Origin: a virus
IMG/VR virus record: IMGVR_UViG_3300044646_000620
Location: 1 to 34,396 of that record
DNA: 34,396 bases
Strand: one strand, 5' to 3'
In this document: positions 13,424 through 34,392 of the stretch, piece after piece
Numbering within the stretch: position 1 is the stretch's first letter
How the letters are laid out: each line of letters starts with the position of its first letter
The notes under the pieces: generated by a model
Database searches by the model: none
What the model saw: only the letters and a program-made list of their open reading frames with translations
Told to the model about the DNA's origin: nothing
Made by a program: the position numbers and the translations under genes

Positions 13424-13711
13424 GTGCCAGACGATCACGTGTTCACATTGAACGGCGACGAGCGGTGGCTTCTGCGTTTCACCACGCTGAAGGGCGCTGC
13501 CTACGGCTACACGTTCTCGCAAAAGGCGAAGCACCCCCGCATCATCCTTGACGCTCGCATGCGTGGGCGGAAGAAGCTCGAGGTGCTCGTGCACGAATTG
13601 CTCCACGCCCTGAATCCAACGCAGTCGGAGGAGCACGTGGAGCAGCAGGGCAAGGACATTGCCAAGGTGCTCTGGGCGTTGAACTACCGAGAGGTGAACG
13701 ATGGCACGTAG
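13424..13711 (+). CDS. HExxH putative zinc metallopeptidase
   Basis: A small protein with the zinc-binding motif VLVHELLHALNPTQSEEH (HExxH with a following Glu/His), as in SprT-like or other short metallopeptidases. GTG 13424 has AAAGGG 6 nt upstream and begins PDDHVF. A TTG at 13385 that overlaps the previous stop would add 13 basic residues. It might process a virion protein or act at the host surface; neither is shown. The product of 95 aa is close to a bare catalytic core. Confidence 0.65.
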   Translation: MPDDHVFTLNGDERWLLRFTTLKGAAYGYTFSQKAKHPRIILDARMRGRKKLEVLVHELLHALNPTQSEEHVEQQGKDIAKVLWALNYREVNDGT

Positions 13712-14606
13712 CGCCACGACATTCCGTCGCAAGAACGCTTCCGACCCGTGGCTTGTCACCACGCTCGACGGTGGCGTCACACGCATCGACTTCGCCAGCC
13801 GGCTGTGGGTGCTGCTCTCCAGCGATTGGCACTGGGACTCGATGAAGTGCAACCGCGAGAAGCTGGCGTCAGACCTACAGAAGGCGAAAGAACTCAACGC
13901 CGCCGTGCTCAGCATCGGCGACCACTTTGACGCCATGGGGGGCAAGTACGATCCCCGCAGCAATGGCAAGTGGGACGTTAGGCCAGAGTTTCAGAGGGGC
14001 AACTACTACGACGACATCGTGACGCAGTGTGCCGAGTGGCTGGAGCCCTACCGTGAGCAGATGGCTCTCATCACGCCGGGCAACCACGAGACTGCTGTGC
14101 GGAAACGCATGGAAACGTGCCTCACCACCAGGCTTGTGGAGCAGCTGCGGGTGAAGGGCTCGAAGTGCCGACACGCCGGCTATTCGGGCTGGGTGCTGTT
14201 CCGGGCTAAGGCCGGCAAGACCAACTCGGCCCTGTACCGACTCTGGTACCACCACGGCTACGGCGGCGGCGGGCCTGTCACCCGGGGCGTGATCGACTAC
14301 AGCCGCTACCTCGTGGACGTGGATGCCGACTGCATTCACGCTGGCCACGTCCATCAGCGGACGCTCATTGAAGCGAGCCGCCAGCGGCTATCGCCAACCG
14401 GCATTGCCAAGGTGCGGCCGATGCACCTCGTGCGGTCAGCGGCCTACAAGCAGGAGTGCCTCACCGACGGCTGGGCTGTTGAGAAGGGCATGAGTGCCAG
14501 ACCGCTTGGCGGATGGTGGATGCTACTCCGGTGGAACACAGACCACACCGAACTACGTGCCTCGTTTCATGACTCACCAAGGGACGACAATGACGACGAC
14601 GTTTGA
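13701..14606 (+). CDS. Calcineurin-like metallophosphoesterase
   Basis: A 301-aa protein with the full metal-binding series: SSDWHWD (D42, H44), GDHFD (D74), GNHE (N128, H129), YHHG (H184, H185) and GHVH (H216, H218). It resembles phage DNA-repair exonuclease/phosphoesterase proteins, so a nucleic acid or nucleotide substrate is likely. The gene starts 11 nt before the end of the preceding HExxH gene. Confidence 0.88.
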   Translation: MARSATTFRRKNASDPWLVTTLDGGVTRIDFASRLWVLLSSDWHWDSMKCNREKLASDLQKAKELNAAVLSIGDHFDAMGGKYDPRSNGKWDVRPEFQRGNYYDDIVTQCAEWLEPYREQMALITPGNHETAVRKRMETCLTTRLVEQLRVKGSKCRHAGYSGWVLFRAKAGKTNSALYRLWYHHGYGGGGPVTRGVIDYSRYLVDVDADCIHAGHVHQRTLIEASRQRLSPTGIAKVRPMHLVRSAAYKQECLTDGWAVEKGMSARPLGGWWMLLRWNTDHTELRASFHDSPRDDNDDDV

Positions 14607-27342: not shown

Positions 27343-27741
27343 ATGGCGATCACGTTCGAGGTGCCTGGCGATCCCGTCCCGCAGCCGAGGCCCAGAGTCT
27401 CGACTCGGGGCGGGTTCGCTCGGGCCTACGTGCCTTCGACGCATCCCGTTCACGCCTACAGGCAGTCGATCGCTGCAGCTGCTCGAGGTGCTGGGCTTGG
27501 CGAGACCGGCGAGCCGCTGAATGTGGTAATCGACGCCGTCTTCGGTCGCCCGAAGTCGCACCTGAACAAGTCGGGCGTGAAGGCGACGGCACCGCGACTG
27601 CCCAGGCCCGACGTGGACAACCTCGGCAAGGCGGTGCTGGATGCCCTGCAGGACGTGATCGGTGATGACACGATGGTGTCTCGCCTGGTCGTGGAAAAGA
27701 GTTTCGGAACCGAAGGGCGCACGACCGTGCGAATCTCTTGA
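27343..27741 (+). CDS. rusA: RusA-type Holliday junction resolvase
   Basis: A 132-aa endodeoxyribonuclease that resolves recombination intermediates. It has the family N-terminus PGDPVPQPRPRVSTRGGFAR, the catalytic Asp set RPDVDNLGKAVLDAL (D90, D92, D100), GDD near residue 108, and a conserved Lys (K119). The length is typical for RusA. It agrees with RecT-like recombination in the phage. The stop overlaps the next TTG start by TTGA. Confidence 0.93.
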   Translation: MAITFEVPGDPVPQPRPRVSTRGGFARAYVPSTHPVHAYRQSIAAAARGAGLGETGEPLNVVIDAVFGRPKSHLNKSGVKATAPRLPRPDVDNLGKAVLDALQDVIGDDTMVSRLVVEKSFGTEGRTTVRIS

Positions 27742-28271
27742 GCAACGCCAGCCTCTATCGCTGCCTCGCTGAACATTGTCAGCAGCACAAGGTGCAGCAC
27801 TACCTCGAGATCGGCACACGCGAAGGCGGCAGCCTGCGAATCGTGCTGGAGAACGCCAGTGCGGATCTTCAGTCGATTTGGATTGCCGACATGTGGGGCA
27901 CCGACTACGGCGGCAGCGGTCGCGGTAGCCACGCACATATCGACCAGATGCTGGATGACTTTAACTTCGACGGACGCCGGGCGTTTCTCGACGGCAACAG
28001 CCGAGACACGATTCCGGCCTTGATGCCAGAGAAGGCCGAAGCGTTCGACCTGATCCTTGTGGACGGCGACCACTCCTACAAAGGCGGCATGGCCGATCTG
28101 GAAAACGCATGGCCGCTAGTGAAACCAGGCGGGTGCGTTTTTTTTCACGACATCACGCATCCGGCCCACCCGGACCTACTGGCGTGCTTCGACGAGTTCG
28201 TGTCGAAGCGTGGATCGCACAGTGAAATCATCCAAGAGCCGTACGGCGTGGGGATCGCATGGAAACGCTAG
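27738..28271 (+). CDS. Class I SAM-dependent methyltransferase
   Basis: A 177-aa protein starting at TTG 27738 in a TTGA overlap. LEIGTREGGSL is the SAM-binding motif I, DLILVDGDHSYKGGMADLEN resembles motif II of the Methyltransf_24 type, and VKPGGCVFFHD is a typical post-motif strand. Such small phage enzymes often sit with glycosyltransferases; the next gene is one. The target could be a sugar or a small molecule. Overlaps the next gene by 13 nt. Confidence 0.85.
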   Translation: MSNASLYRCLAEHCQQHKVQHYLEIGTREGGSLRIVLENASADLQSIWIADMWGTDYGGSGRGSHAHIDQMLDDFNFDGRRAFLDGNSRDTIPALMPEKAEAFDLILVDGDHSYKGGMADLENAWPLVKPGGCVFFHDITHPAHPDLLACFDEFVSKRGSHSEIIQEPYGVGIAWKR

Positions 28272-29161
28272 ACATTCCGGCACACCTGCTGCAGCCGTTG
28301 GAGGTGTTCGGTGATTCCTTGATCGCCAAGGCCAACGAAGGCGCGGCCCGCTTGGCCAATTCCAAGGTGGCAATCGTCGGCCTGGCCCGTAACTGCGGCG
28401 GCCCTCTGCGTGCGAACCTCGAGCAGGCTCTGCAGGTCGCCGAAGGCTGCCGAGATTGGCGGCTGCACATCGAAAGCAATGACTGCGACGATGACACGGT
28501 AGACGTGCTCGCTGAGTTCTGCCGTGCCCACAAGGAAGCCACATTCCACTACCAGATCCTCGGTCGGCAGCAGTTCTCGGCAGAGTTCGCCGGCCCTCGC
28601 ACCATCGCCTTGGCCGAGTACCGCGACGCCTGCCAGCGGTGGGTGCGTGCGTGTGCAGCTGATGCCGACTACGTCATAGCGATCGACTGGGACGCCTGGG
28701 GCGGCTTCTCTGTGCCCGGCCTGCTGAATGGCGTGGGCTGGCTTGTCGAGCTCCAGGGGGCGTACGGCATGGCCGCCGTTTCGCTGCTCGAGATGGCCAC
28801 CATGAGCATGGGCGAGGACAACACGCCGAAGCTGACCAGCGGGTGGGCTCACTACGACGCCTGGGCCTTGCGGCTCAATTCGTATTGGGACGACTACACC
28901 GCTGGCCTCGGCGGGTGGAAGCATCAGTGGATCCCACCCGTTGGATCGCCGCCGGTGCGTGTGTGTTCGGCCTTCGGCGGGCTCGTGGTGTATCGGACTG
29001 ATGCCTACCTGAAAGGCACGTACGACGGCGTGCACGATTGCGAGCATGTGGCGTTTCACAAAAGCATCGAGAAGGCAACAGGTGGGCAGGGGCTGTACCT
29101 GTGCCCGTCGATGCGAACTGTCATGCGGTGGATGAATGCGCGGCAACACCGCGACGATTAA
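28259..29161 (+). CDS. Glycosyltransferase (CAP59/GT-A-like)
   Basis: A 300-aa enzyme. VAIVGLARNCGGPLRANLEQ and WRLHIESNDCDDDTVDVLAE look like the nucleotide-binding part of CAP59-type mannosyltransferases, and DYVIAIDWDAWGG supplies a DxD-like metal site (DWD). The C-terminal half has many Trp and Gly residues and a conserved DCEHVAFHK. It is next to a methyltransferase, so sugar decoration of capsid, tail or host surface is a fair guess. Confidence 0.8.
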   Translation: METLDIPAHLLQPLEVFGDSLIAKANEGAARLANSKVAIVGLARNCGGPLRANLEQALQVAEGCRDWRLHIESNDCDDDTVDVLAEFCRAHKEATFHYQILGRQQFSAEFAGPRTIALAEYRDACQRWVRACAADADYVIAIDWDAWGGFSVPGLLNGVGWLVELQGAYGMAAVSLLEMATMSMGEDNTPKLTSGWAHYDAWALRLNSYWDDYTAGLGGWKHQWIPPVGSPPVRVCSAFGGLVVYRTDAYLKGTYDGVHDCEHVAFHKSIEKATGGQGLYLCPSMRTVMRWMNARQHRDD

Positions 29162-29750: not shown

Positions 29751-30062
29751 ATGCCATCCAGTGAGCAATTCGGCGCGTCGCCGGCCGAGATCGAGCAGTA
29801 CGGTGCGAATCTCTCGATCTGGGAGGCCGTGAAGCTGCTGCAGCGGTATGCCCCGCTCGTTGGCTTTGCCCGCGATTTCGCCACGACGCTCGACCCGTAC
29901 AAGAAGTCACTTCTCGTGGCCGACGCATGCGAATGGCTGGCGTCGCAGACCAACGCCCAGGCCGATGACCAGCTAGTGAAGCTCCTGGCCGACGTGCTCA
30001 AGACGCCGCAGGGCGAAGCCCTCGTCCGGTGGTGCCTGCTGCAGGTGGAGACCGCACGTTGA
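29751..30062 (+). CDS. Hypothetical protein (103 aa) upstream of lysis genes
   Basis: ATG 29751 follows CAGGAG by 8 nt. The product is helical: LSIWEAVKLLQRYAPLVGFA, YKKSLLVADACEWLASQTNA. There is no clear transmembrane segment. Stop overlaps the next gene by TTGA. Confidence 0.6.
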   Translation: MPSSEQFGASPAEIEQYGANLSIWEAVKLLQRYAPLVGFARDFATTLDPYKKSLLVADACEWLASQTNAQADDQLVKLLADVLKTPQGEALVRWCLLQVETAR

Positions 30063-30667
30063 ATGGCGACACTCTCTTTCGAGGCGCGGCCGTCTGTCTG
30101 GCGGTGGTTCTGGCGGTGGCTCCGTACCGAGCGGAAATCCTCTCGGCGTGCCGTCGTGTCGTGGAAGCCGCAAAAGAAAACGCCCATCTCCTGAGTCGGC
30201 TTGCGGTGATTGCCCTGCTTTTCGCCGCAGCGTGGGGCAAGGTGCCGCTGCCGTCCTTTCCTGTCGTGCCAGCGGCCCCGGTGGCCGTCGAGACGCCGAG
30301 CGACGAGATGAAGACGCTGGTGCAGCCGATTGCCGACGCCCTGCGTGGTGCCTCTGCCGTAGACCGTGCCCTGTGGGCCGAGACGTGGAACAAAGCCGCC
30401 GTGGTGGCTGCCGGCGATGCCGTCACGACCGAAGTGGTGTTCACCGACTCCCGTGCTCTGCGGCTGTTCACCGCCCTGGCCGTGGACATCGCCTGGCGGC
30501 GAATCGGGCAGCATGTGCCCGGCTCCAACGAATCGCTCAGGAGGGCCGTAGAGGCCGCGTACGGGTCCGCTGTTGGCACGGACGTGGTTCCGGTCACTGC
30601 GGACCTGCGGGGCCGTTACGTGGCGTTCTGTAAGGCCGTGGCTTGGGCCGGCATGAACGGGGGTTGA
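30059..30667 (+). CDS. Membrane protein with two predicted helices, upstream of protease
   Basis: Starts at TTG 30059 in TTGA with the previous stop. Residues about 6-23 (LFRGAAVCLAVVLAVAPYRA) and 45-62 (LLSRLAVIALLFAAAWGKVP) are hydrophobic helices; a Pro/Val linker follows, then a soluble helical region of about 120 residues. It is immediately upstream of a papain-like protease, so it may be part of the lysis cassette (holin or protease anchor). Two helices with a large soluble tail are unusual for a plain holin. Confidence 0.6.
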   Translation: MNGDTLFRGAAVCLAVVLAVAPYRAEILSACRRVVEAAKENAHLLSRLAVIALLFAAAWGKVPLPSFPVVPAAPVAVETPSDEMKTLVQPIADALRGASAVDRALWAETWNKAAVVAAGDAVTTEVVFTDSRALRLFTALAVDIAWRRIGQHVPGSNESLRRAVEAAYGSAVGTDVVPVTADLRGRYVAFCKAVAWAGMNGG

Positions 30668-30670
30668 ACC

Positions 30671-31594
30671 GTGGCCGAGCATGGCATGGGCTACGTCCCC
30701 GACCCAGCTGGAGCGGAAGCCTTCGTGGCAACGCTTCCGCATCCGACGCTTGCAACGGCCGGGCCGGATCTCAAGGCGGCCGATCAGGACGTGATGCTGT
30801 ACCCGGCCCTGCTCGCCTGCTCGCCGTCGTGGCGGCGTGGGTCGCAGGGCAACGTGGGATCGTGTGTCGGTTGGGGCGCGAGCCTGGCGGTGGACGTTCT
30901 CGCCGCGTGCGACATCCACTGGCGGAAAGAGCCTGAGTCGTGGAACGGTCGCACGATCGAGGCCAGCTTGTACGGGTTCTCTCGCGTCGAGGCCCGCGGC
31001 CAGCGATCAAACACCGGCGGCGACGGGTCCACCGGGTTCCATGCGGCCAAAAGCGTCCGCGACCTCGGCTGCCTGCACTACGGCGTGGACTACGGCGGCA
31101 CGATCATCCGCGAGGAAGGCAAGCAGCAGCGTGACCGTGAGTGGGGCCGCAACGGAGTTCCCGACGTGCTCGAGCCCTACGCCAAGCAGCGGCTGTGCTC
31201 AGAGACAACGTTAGCCACGTCATTTCGAGAGGCAGCGGCGGCGATCAGTAACGGCTACCCGGTGGTCGTGTGCAGCGGCCAAGGTTTCAGCATGAGTCGG
31301 GACGATGACGGCTTTTGCAAGGCCGGCGGCGTATGGTGGCACGCGATGTGCTTTATCGGCGTGCGATTCGGTAAGCGGCCCGGCCTCTTGTGTGCCAACT
31401 CGTGGGGCGACAGCAACACGGTTGGAAAGCACTTCCCTGACAACATGCCTGATGCCGTCCGCAAGTGTTCTTTCTGGGTCGATGCCGAAGTGGTGGACCG
31501 AATGCTTAGCGGGCGTGATTCCTACGTCTACGCCGGCTACAGCGGATTCAAGCCGACGCAAATGCCAGACAACTGGCTGAGGGGAATTCTGTGA
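30671..31594 (+). CDS. Papain-like (C1A-type) cysteine protease, candidate lysin
   Basis: A 307-aa protein with the full papain signature: Gln59 and Cys65 in GSQGNVGSCVGWG (Q to C distance 6, as in papain Q19/C25), His224 in GGVWWHAMCFIG, and Asn243 in CANSWGD (papain NSWG). Starts at GTG 30671; no signal peptide. It lies between two-helix membrane genes and a lipoprotein plus holin-like gene, and no lysozyme, amidase or transglycosylase was found in the window. Host-envelope proteolysis at lysis or entry is the natural reading, but is inference. Confidence 0.8.
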   Translation: MAEHGMGYVPDPAGAEAFVATLPHPTLATAGPDLKAADQDVMLYPALLACSPSWRRGSQGNVGSCVGWGASLAVDVLAACDIHWRKEPESWNGRTIEASLYGFSRVEARGQRSNTGGDGSTGFHAAKSVRDLGCLHYGVDYGGTIIREEGKQQRDREWGRNGVPDVLEPYAKQRLCSETTLATSFREAAAAISNGYPVVVCSGQGFSMSRDDDGFCKAGGVWWHAMCFIGVRFGKRPGLLCANSWGDSNTVGKHFPDNMPDAVRKCSFWVDAEVVDRMLSGRDSYVYAGYSGFKPTQMPDNWLRGIL

Positions 31595-31869
31595 TGCGTT
31601 GGATCATCTGCCTGTCGATTGCCCTGGCTGGCTGCGTGGCAACGCTGCCCAGCGATCCCAGCGTCACTGCTGATCTCGCCTGCGAGACAGCCCGCATGGT
31701 CGTGCAGCTGCGGCAGGAGATCACGCCGAGCCCCGTCCCGGCATCAGACAAGTGCGAGAACTGCGACGGAACAGGAAAGATTGGCGACGGGCGTATTGTC
31801 ATGCCATGCCCCATTTGCAAGGGCACCGGCAAAAAGCTGCAAAGCGTGTGCAAGGACTGCCCGAAATGA
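31594..31869 (+). CDS. Lipoprotein with DnaJ-type CxxCxGxG motifs
   Basis: A 91-aa protein starting at ATG 31594 in TGATG with the protease stop. The signal peptide MRWIICLSIALAGC ends in a lipobox LAGC (Cys14). The C-terminal half has CENCDGTGKI, CPICKGTGKK and CKDC, tandem zinc-finger-like DnaJ motifs. A lipoprotein in the lysis cassette recalls o-spanins, but the zinc-like module is new to me. Both envelope disruption and zinc or protein binding are possible. Confidence 0.75.
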   Translation: MRWIICLSIALAGCVATLPSDPSVTADLACETARMVVQLRQEITPSPVPASDKCENCDGTGKIGDGRIVMPCPICKGTGKKLQSVCKDCPK

Positions 31870-32198
31870 CCACCGACGAACTCACCACCTACGTCTGGGA
31901 TCGGCTTCCGGCTCGCCGTCGGCTGGTGGGCCGACGTGTCGTTGACCGCATCGTGCGGCGTGCTGTCCGCACATGGCCTCACGGGGTAATTGAGCAGTGC
32001 GACCGTCAGCAGTGCGACGTGCTGGGCAAATACTGGATTCGCTCGCTTGAGCGTGGTGAGCGGCACGAGGTTCAGGGATTCCTGGGGTCCATCGTGCTCG
32101 GTGCCATCATCGCCAAGATCGTGGGATTGTTGATCGACTGGTGGTGGGCACGGCAGGAAAACCGGCTGGCAATGCTGGAGATGACGAGGGCCGTATGA
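31866..32198 (+). CDS. Small membrane protein in the lysis cassette
   Basis: A 110-aa protein whose ATG overlaps the lipoprotein stop (ATGA). N-terminal residues 1-70 are Arg-rich; one transmembrane segment (GSIVLGAIIAKIVGLLIDWW) lies near residues 78-97, followed by a charged tail. It may be an i-spanin-like or holin-associated protein. It overlaps the next gene by 4 nt. Confidence 0.6.
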   Translation: MTTDELTTYVWDRLPARRRLVGRRVVDRIVRRAVRTWPHGVIEQCDRQQCDVLGKYWIRSLERGERHEVQGFLGSIVLGAIIAKIVGLLIDWWWARQENRLAMLEMTRAV

Positions 32199-32431
32199 CG
32201 GACGCAGCGAAAGACACGATGTTCGGCATCATGGAACGCTGGGGCTTCCCGGTGCTCGTGGCGATTGCAGCCGGGTGGATACTGCGAAACGACGTGCTGT
32301 TGCCCCTCGTCGAGGAGCACCGGTCTTTCGTGAAGTCGCTGTCAGAGACGCAGCGTGAGATCAGCAAGGCCGTGAGCGAGCAGACGAGACTGCTCTACGC
32401 ACTGCAACCCAAGTCCGGGCAGGAGAACTAG
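32195..32431 (+). CDS. BhlA-like holin candidate
   Basis: A 78-aa protein with one N-terminal transmembrane helix (WGFPVLVAIAAGWILRND, about 16-33) followed by a polar helix of heptad character (EEHRSFVKSLSETQREISKA). This is the arrangement of BhlA/UviB-type holin-like proteins. Overlaps the previous gene by ATGA. Function as holin is not shown. Confidence 0.65.
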   Translation: MTDAAKDTMFGIMERWGFPVLVAIAAGWILRNDVLLPLVEEHRSFVKSLSETQREISKAVSEQTRLLYALQPKSGQEN

Positions 32432-32433
32432 CC

Positions 32434-33186
32434 ATGCCGATGAGTGCAAGACTGCTGCGGCCCCGCACTGGCGGCATCAGCACAGGCAAACTTCGGCAAA
32501 GTCTGGCGTTGTATCTGCCGCTCAATGAGACGGCGACTAGCGGCAACGTGACCGCCGTGGACAACAGCGGGAACGGCTTCAACTTCACAAGCGTCAACTC
32601 TGTGCTGTCAACCTCTGGCAAGGTCGGCAACGCACGCGAGTTCATCAAAGCGAACCAAACGCACCTTCTCGGCGGCAGCACCAGTTCGTTGCTGGAGTTT
32701 GGAGGAGCCGATTGGTCGCTCCAGTTTTGGTTGAATCTGACCGGCCCGCTGCCGACAACCGGAACGAACGCAACGATACTGTCGCGCAACGTCGACAGCA
32801 GCGGCAGTTTTGCGGCTAGCGAATTTTCGGTAACGATGTTTTTCAACAGCGGCGCGACGAATCTCAGCGTCAACGCTGCTAACACCATCACGTTCACGCA
32901 GTTCGGCTCGTTGCTTGCGAACACGTGGCACCACATTGTGCTGACCAACAGCGGCGCAACACTGTCGTACTACCGCGACGGCAGCCTGATTTCCACCGGC
33001 ACCCGCACAGGAACGTGGTTGACGGGCGCGCGACACACCGTCATCGGCATTCCGAATACCAACGCAATGGCAACACAGACGATAGATGCGAAAATTGACG
33101 AACTTGCGAAATGGAATCGCACTCTATCCGCCGATGAGATTGCCGCCCTGTGGAATAAGGGCAACGGCAGGAGCCTCGTGGTATGA
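32434..33186 (+). CDS. LamG/concanavalin-A-like lectin domain protein
   Basis: A 250-aa protein. Residues about 20-245 are a jelly-roll lectin: SLALYLPLNETATSGNVTAV, WSLQFWLNLTGPLPTTGTNA, NTWHHIVLTNSGATLSYYRD, IDELAKWNRTLSADEIAALW. The HHIV/YYRDG and DELAKWNR motifs are hallmarks of LamG_3-type domains. It is likely a virion glycan-binding or receptor-binding protein. It ends 4 nt into the next gene. Confidence 0.85.
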   Translation: MPMSARLLRPRTGGISTGKLRQSLALYLPLNETATSGNVTAVDNSGNGFNFTSVNSVLSTSGKVGNAREFIKANQTHLLGGSTSSLLEFGGADWSLQFWLNLTGPLPTTGTNATILSRNVDSSGSFAASEFSVTMFFNSGATNLSVNAANTITFTQFGSLLANTWHHIVLTNSGATLSYYRDGSLISTGTRTGTWLTGARHTVIGIPNTNAMATQTIDAKIDELAKWNRTLSADEIAALWNKGNGRSLVV

Positions 33187-33975: not shown

Positions 33976-34392
33976 ATGCCTCAACGTATGCCCGCCCATA
34001 GGCCGCTGCGCCTGCGTTCGTCGCGTCAGCGGCGAGACGATAGCGCCAGGCCCAACGCGTCGGCGCGTGGGTATTGCGACAAGGCGCACAGGCGGTGGCG
34101 TCAGGCTGTGCTGACGCGAGACGCTTGGCAATGCCGGGCCTGCGGTGCGGTCTGCCAAGAGTACGCACAGGCAGACCACGTTGTGCCTGTTAGTCAGGGT
34201 GGTGCGAGGTATGACGTTGCGAATGGTCAAACTCTCTGCAGGTCGTGCCACGGACGCAAAACCCGACGCGAGCAAGGCGAAGTCGGATCGCAAAGTCGCG
34301 TCGCGGTCGCGCGTGCGAGCCAGGCCGTGGCCTCGCGGCCGACTGCGAGCCGAGGCCAGGGCGGTCAAAACCACCCCAACTTTGGCCAATAA
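33976..34392 (+). CDS. HNH endonuclease
   Basis: A 138-aa protein with a clear HNH fold: C53-x-x-C56, the core AQADHVVPVSQGGARYDVAN (D67, H68, N83), and C88-x-x-C91-H92. HNH genes next to terS/terL assist packaging-site cleavage in HK97-like phages, so with terL at the opposite end of the window a circular map is suggested. The last 40 residues are repetitive Ser/Arg/Ala/Gln, translated from a GC-rich, low-complexity stretch. Ends 4 nt before the window edge. Confidence 0.92.
   Translation: MPQRMPAHRPLRLRSSRQRRDDSARPNASARGYCDKAHRRWRQAVLTRDAWQCRACGAVCQEYAQADHVVPVSQGGARYDVANGQTLCRSCHGRKTRREQGEVGSQSRVAVARASQAVASRPTASRGQGGQNHPNFGQ

Follow-up and report, generated by a model that had tools for sequence, protein, structure and literature searches.

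A candidate lysis module built around a predicted papain-fold peptidase in phages of probable planctomycete hosts

The viral record IMGVR_UViG_3300044646_000620 (34,396 bases, analysed over its whole length and called the window here) begins inside the gene for the terminase large subunit and ends at an HNH endonuclease gene. Portal, S78 prohead protease, capsid, tail, integrase and replication genes follow the terminase, and the HNH gene comes last; with terminase at one end and HNH at the other, the window is a nearly whole phage genome opened near its packaging site. Between RusA and HNH/terminase lies a cassette of small genes around a gene for a papain-like peptidase, pap (Table 1). A first-pass annotation, made from the DNA letters alone, had described it as five coupled genes at 30059–32431 encoding a protease-based lysis system. 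All five reading frames are present at that place, and a further small gene upstream, up1, is likely a sixth member. The start of tm overlaps the end of up1 (TTGA), while lip, sm and hol each start within the stop codon of the preceding gene (TGATG, ATGA and ATGA, respectively); given these overlaps, translational coupling of lip, sm and hol is likely.

Table 1. Genes of the module and the adjoining packaging gene in the window (aa, amino acids)
Gene	Description	Coordinates	Strand	Basis or remark
up1	small soluble protein, 103 aa from internal ATG	29751..30062	+	no predicted helix; conserved before tm
tm	two-helix membrane protein, 202 aa, TTG start	30059..30667	+	hydrophobic segments 5-23 and 42-60
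pap	predicted papain-like cysteine peptidase, 307 aa	30671..31594	+	invariant residues, profile, AlphaFold, Foldseek, pN/pS
lip	small lipoprotein, lipobox LAGC, two CxxCxGxG motifs and a further CxxC	31594 (or 31591)..31869	+	sequence
sm	small membrane protein, 110 aa, one strong helix (72-90), holin candidate	31866..32198	+	helix prediction
hol	78 aa, one N-terminal helix and charged tail, holin candidate	32195..32431	+	helix prediction
HNH	HNH endonuclease, start of packaging module (flank, outside cassette)	33976..34392	+	PF01844, E 2.5e-11; terminase large subunit next in relatives

Scanning of viral contigs with the peptidase recovered 57 distinct relatives (L002–L058, 69–93% identity), and wherever the contig extends far enough the order tm, pap, lip, sm, hol is kept. 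The peptidase gene is present in all 57, lip, sm and hol in 56 each, tm in 49 and up1 in 46, those without up1 mostly lacking that stretch of sequence. The five genes do recur together, as the first-pass annotation had proposed to check, but the cassette has to be widened by the co-conserved up1. Median identity in these relatives is 86% for pap, 82% for hol, 62–63% for lip and tm, 59% for up1 and 46% for sm. Against close relatives, pap shows 0.08–0.12 nonsynonymous (pN) and 0.49–0.59 synonymous (pS) differences per site (pN/pS about 0.16–0.23) and is thus under purifying selection; this ratio, together with the recurring gene order, excludes a chance origin of the frames. No phage of the group with a contig spanning the site was found to lack the cassette genes.

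Single-sequence searches of the pap product against Pfam, PHROGs and the Protein Data Bank (PDB), and a further search of a phage collection, returned no match, so profiles were needed. In an alignment of 54 homologues, the most distant at 25% identity, no more than 16 columns are invariant, among them Q59, C65, H224, N243 and W245, the counterparts of the oxyanion Gln and the Cys, His, Asn and Trp of papain. The complete Q/C/H/N set first noticed in the single sequence therefore holds throughout the alignment, and its order, with the Asn-x-Trp motif, is that of clan CA, C1-like peptidases. When the profile of this alignment was compared with the PDB, papain accounted for the six best entries (expectation value, E, 0.009–0.03); none of the 54 members matches the Pfam C1 family models at E ≤ 1, and a curated Peptidase C1A match is absent. 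AlphaFold 2 modelling with 22 near-identical sequences gave a mean predicted local distance difference test score (pLDDT) of 42, and the diverse 54-sequence alignment (A5) was needed to reach a pLDDT of 89.8 with a predicted template-modelling score of 0.91. Foldseek with this model retrieved 164 PDB chains at E ≤ 0.001, headed by xylellain (E 6e-10) and followed by cathepsins and papain; the best 50 of the 164 are all C1-type proteases. Against viral structures, the same search returned Peptidase C1 proteins from phages and from giant viruses; Lysin A of a mycobacteriophage and an endolysin of a Gordonia phage ranked lower. Taken together, the invariant residues, the papain profile match and the modelled fold make it well supported that pap encodes a papain-fold peptidase with an intact predicted active site. 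Pfam recognised no peptidoglycan-cutting domain family in the protein or its relatives, and no cell-wall-binding domain was recognised for it.

Directly before the peptidase, tm encodes a conserved accessory domain in its C-terminal part (about residues 75–202), and an iterative hidden Markov model search found a homologous upstream gene in 148 of 162 loci. The domain is anchored by two helices in the window and by one helix or a lipobox in other relatives, which suggests that it faces outward. On the other side, the lip product opens with a short signal sequence carrying a lipobox (MRWIICLSIALAGC), as in bacterial lipoproteins, and 50 of its 56 relatives have a lipobox as well. It had been described as a lipoprotein with DnaJ-type motifs. 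Its lipoprotein nature and paired CxxC motifs stand, but the resemblance to DnaJ is partial: DnaJ_CXXCXGXG (PF00684) scores 27.7 bits (E 3e-6) against a curated cut-off of 32.7, and the protein has two CxxCxGxG motifs and one CxxC where the central zinc domain of DnaJ has four motifs. Both full motifs are kept in 34 of the 56 relatives, and the paired CxxC alone is general. In the prophages L081, L082 and L086, a lip-type lipoprotein runs on into a thioredoxin-type segment with CGPC or CPPC; the L082 segment matches Pfam Thioredoxin (E 4e-6), and in L081 the motif is present but Pfam gives no significant match. Loci L077–L079 instead encode a separate exported thioredoxin-like protein. An exported CxxC or thioredoxin protein follows the peptidase in 21 of 35 representatives, compared with 1 of 35 antisense controls; this test replaced an earlier count of downstream Cys-motif genes that had been inflated by the HNH gene. 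The thioredoxin domains in its relatives suggest that lip probably handles thiols or disulfides. In L082, the peptidase frame near the match looks disrupted and the thioredoxin-lipoprotein downstream is intact.

Two further small proteins with predicted membrane helices complete the cassette. The sm product has a weak match to a PHROG annotated as holin (phrog_4237, E 0.019). The hol product, previously called a BhlA-like holin, indeed shares the BhlA/UviB architecture, with a helix at residues 18–36 of 78 followed by a charged tail, but the likeness is one of architecture only: the BhlA/UviB family models give no match, Pfam gives none at E ≤ 10, and the best PHROG (E 0.11) is of unknown function. 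The route of the peptidase across the inner membrane appears to differ between clades. An N-terminal membrane helix is present in 84 of 201 full-length peptidase homologues and absent from 117, the latter including the window clade, whose peptidase has neither an export signal nor an N-terminal signal-anchor helix; on the peptidase tree, anchored and unanchored states changed at least twice. Such coexistence of two export modes in one enzyme family is shared with signal-arrest-release (SAR) and holin-dependent endolysins and points to a site of action in the envelope, although SAR endolysins carry a muramidase or amidase and not a C1-like peptidase as catalytic domain. In the clade of L167 and L162, a 75-residue membrane protein with a weak Transgly_assoc (GlsB-like) match is encoded directly after the anchored peptidase (L167:5140-5367 and L162:1095-1322) and is a possible holin.

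Searches beyond viral contigs connected the module to planctomycetes. A weak tblastn match among plasmids (E 0.3) led to pPLIM01 of Planctopirus limnophila DSM 3776 (NC_014149.1, positions 1-37010; locus L059), where the homologue, PLIM_RS21800, was accepted only once it also matched the profile and showed the catalytic residues and the synteny; blastp within a small set gave E 6e-7. In this circular element of 37,010 bases, the gene is followed immediately by one for a small exported Cys-containing protein, then by HNH and terminase. The annotation of pPLIM01 lists terminase, portal, a ClpP-type protease, capsid, tail, ParB and integrases, and the element is a complete temperate tailed-phage genome, a phage-plasmid; the 2010 P. 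limnophila genome paper reportedly called it only a plasmid. A profile search of 392 genomes in the phylum of the Planctomyces metagenome-assembled genome carrying the pPLIM01 element found the gene in 13, and the closest chromosomal planctomycete prophage copy is 43% identical to the window's peptidase over its length (E 1e-61). This copy and the pPLIM01 homologue bear out the proposed planctomycete-like host: as judged from sequence, a planctomycete is the most likely host of the window phage, and this is well supported. A scan of genome contigs with alignment A1 detected no relatives, and a partial match in a Caballeronia plasmid (E 0.02) was dismissed as chance. Genome G322, which has a contig matching pPLIM01, also carries a second papain homologue on its chromosome, beside a phage tail tube gene (L080, L089).

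The carriers are diverse in their virion genes. Planctomycete prophages with the module have Terminase_6, lambda-type portal, Mu-like capsid or HK97-type genes, and phages whose terminase large subunits are 88–96% identical to that of the window have peptidases only 33–59% identical, with the neighbouring genes changed too. In L167, the same cassette plan is realised with an entirely different set of membrane proteins. Comparison of these loci indicates that the module travels independently of virion type and is swapped as a block between phages. A module that follows the host and not the capsid type is what would be expected of lysis and not of virion maturation.

We then searched for conventional lytic enzymes. 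Pfam and PHROGs scans of 61 window frames, with most proteins of unknown family rescanned singly or in a second set, revealed no peptidoglycan hydrolase among the 25 families listed, and when the 54 genes of circular, complete pPLIM01 were run against Pfam, the families listed likewise included none. In 35 further contigs of 34–60 kb and in pPLIM01, Amidase_2, Phage_lysozyme, SLT, NLPC_P60, M15_3 and M23 gave no match above cut-off, while the same six-family searches gave matches in control genomes. The absence of a recognisable peptidoglycan hydrolase, first remarked for the window, thus extends to pPLIM01 and, for these six families, to the 35 contigs.

These findings together make it probable that the cassette is a lysis module in which a papain-fold enzyme takes the place of an endolysin. 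The module adjoins HNH/terminase with membrane proteins around the enzyme, just as the lysis genes of lambda stand just before its terminase; holin-like proteins and adjacent packaging genes are what a late lysis cassette contains, the holin nature being taken from topology only. The same reading is favoured by the exchange of the gene set as a block, by its presence in planctomycete prophages whose capsid and packaging genes are unrelated, and by the lack of an export signal in the window clade alongside signal anchors in other clades. Late in infection, the coupled operon would produce the peptidase in the cytoplasm, and sm and/or hol may act as holins that give it passage across the inner membrane; export in sister clades would depend on an N-terminal signal anchor instead. 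Once in the periplasm, the peptidase would cut peptide bonds of a load-bearing layer, either the stem and cross-link peptides of peptidoglycan or a disulfide-rich protein layer. Two envelope-anchored partners, the tm accessory domain and the Cys-motif lipoprotein, would stand beside it, and the lipoprotein may keep C65 reduced or open disulfide cross-links. Several observations weigh against this reading. No holin family match is significant for sm or hol in Pfam or PHROGs. The peptidase at L046:5561-6442 lacks 12 residues spanning the NSWG motif and is perhaps a dead copy or an assembly error. Most contigs are classed as linear, so that a hydrolase could sit in the missing part, and only pPLIM01 is circular and complete; a hydrolase of unknown family would moreover be invisible to family searches. 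Finally, LamG, FN3 or fibre-like proteins come right after hol, and the neighbours alone would also fit a host-recognition region.

Within the lysis explanation, the two substrates can be compared. The first-pass annotation had proposed attack on a protein-based envelope. Its lysis part is supported by gene context, block exchange, prophages and export modes, but the protein target is not directly supported, and the older picture of a protein wall in place of peptidoglycan is outdated, as planctomycetes including P. limnophila have a lysozyme-sensitive peptidoglycan sacculus (PMC4432640). The enzyme could be a peptidoglycan endopeptidase, with a C1-like fold but the function of an ordinary endolysin, acting on a normal peptidoglycan wall; this is a serious possibility, if short of an even chance. 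P. limnophila, the host of the pPLIM01 homologue, has sacculi with diaminopimelic acid (DAP), and the complete pPLIM01 genome holds no other peptidoglycan hydrolase that was found; actinophage endolysins include papain-like N5 domains and a cysteine protease-like protein (PMC3314691, PMC4982276), and the viral fold search returned lysins. Yet the best fold matches are true C1A proteases and not NlpC/P60, CHAP or C39 peptidoglycan peptidases, none of these three families matches significantly, and a recognisable cell-wall-binding domain is missing. The general-protease fold speaks rather for digestion of an envelope protein layer whose disulfides would be opened by the Cys-motif lipoprotein or thioredoxin, as do the downstream thioredoxin or CxxC proteins and the older chemistry of the related Planctomyces maris, whose envelope was described as Pro/Cys-rich, disulfide-stabilised protein (reviewed in PMC3035269). 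We consider this the weaker of the two and rather unlikely, given that the view of planctomycetes as lacking peptidoglycan has been overturned for the species tested (PMC4432640) and that a thiol partner may just keep the catalytic cysteine reduced. In view of the lysozyme-sensitive DAP sacculi, the cutting of peptidoglycan peptides is slightly more likely, while the disulfide-rich envelopes of P. maris and the thioredoxin domains beside the enzyme in several relatives leave a protein target possible.

Two explanations outside lysis appear much less probable. The fibre-like LamG/FN3 genes directly downstream of hol could indicate a virion protease, with a task in the processing of capsid or tail proteins or, as a tail component, in opening the envelope when the phage enters; we hold this to be highly improbable, since a separate head maturation protease is present (Peptidase_S78 in the window, the ClpP type in pPLIM01), the module is found alongside capsids and portals of unrelated types, and the N-terminal membrane anchors of many homologues are unsuited to a virion part. 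The cassette could also be a lysogenic or host-takeover factor that alters the envelope, for example to exclude other phages, with a hydrolase of unknown type performing lysis. Such a role would suit the carriers that are prophages or a phage-plasmid, and unknown-family hydrolases leave room for it, but it is very unlikely: the genes are coupled, stand in line with late packaging genes and occur in every covered phage of the group, whereas phage exclusion genes are usually patchy.

The surroundings of the module vary. A LamG protein (32434-33186) directly follows hol in the window, and this slot is highly variable in relatives (LamG, FN3, fibre-like) and probably serves host recognition. Between RusA and the cassette (27738-29161) lie genes for a Methyltransf_24 family protein and a weakly glycosyltransferase-like protein, kept in many relatives. 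Elsewhere in the window, a calcineurin-like phosphoesterase (13701-14606; PF00149, E 8e-5) is encoded after the tail genes.

Compared with known systems, the module combines familiar parts in a different way. With the C1A proteases xylellain (3OIS), cathepsin B and papain, the peptidase shares Q, C, H, N, the NxW motif and the predicted fold; it differs in giving no single-sequence family match, in its phage operon with membrane proteins and in an identity to xylellain of about 17%. Papain-like domains in phage endolysins are already known from actinophages: the N5 domain of mycobacteriophage LysA is a papain-like peptidase thought to cut peptidoglycan peptides (PMC3314691), and Gordonia phage BetterKatz has a separate cysteine protease-like endolysin gene, gp29, with a glycoside hydrolase gene beside it (PMC4982276). 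Those phages thus share a papain-superfamily peptidase in a lysis cassette, but there it is as a rule fused to a glycosidase or amidase or encoded next to one. Here, the searches turned up no second hydrolase and a C1A-type fold is the only candidate lytic enzyme, in a probable Gram-negative planctomycete host and with a Cys-motif lipoprotein or thioredoxin and an accessory membrane protein as partners. Spanins (Rz/Rz1) also pair an inner-membrane protein having an outward domain with a small lipoprotein beside the lytic enzyme; the cassette differs in its conserved Cys motifs and thioredoxin fusions, and some relatives make the accessory domain itself as a lipoprotein. Rz-like PHROGs gave only weak matches to the cassette relatives (E 0.02–0.09), not clearly above noise. 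The literature searched contained no described planctomycete phage lysis system and no mention of this cassette, and work joining papain and lysis cassettes was relevant only for actinophage endolysins.

The candidate enzyme lies outside the known endolysin classes, and the module may serve as a marker for planctomycete phages in metagenomes. Its wider interest concerns the host wall. P. limnophila and other planctomycetes have lysozyme-sensitive peptidoglycan sacculi with DAP (PMC4432640). The extent to which planctomycetes rely on peptidoglycan or on protein in their envelope has been disputed for decades. Planctomycete lysis without any peptidoglycan hydrolase, in which the protease and a membrane-anchored disulfide reductase dismantle a disulfide-linked protein layer, seems unlikely to us, but if true it would be a mechanism not based on murein. 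The bonds that a lytic enzyme has to break for a cell to burst reveal what keeps that cell intact. With the module present in more than 200 freshwater or prophage loci, as well as in the laboratory strain P. limnophila DSM 3776, the wall question becomes testable.

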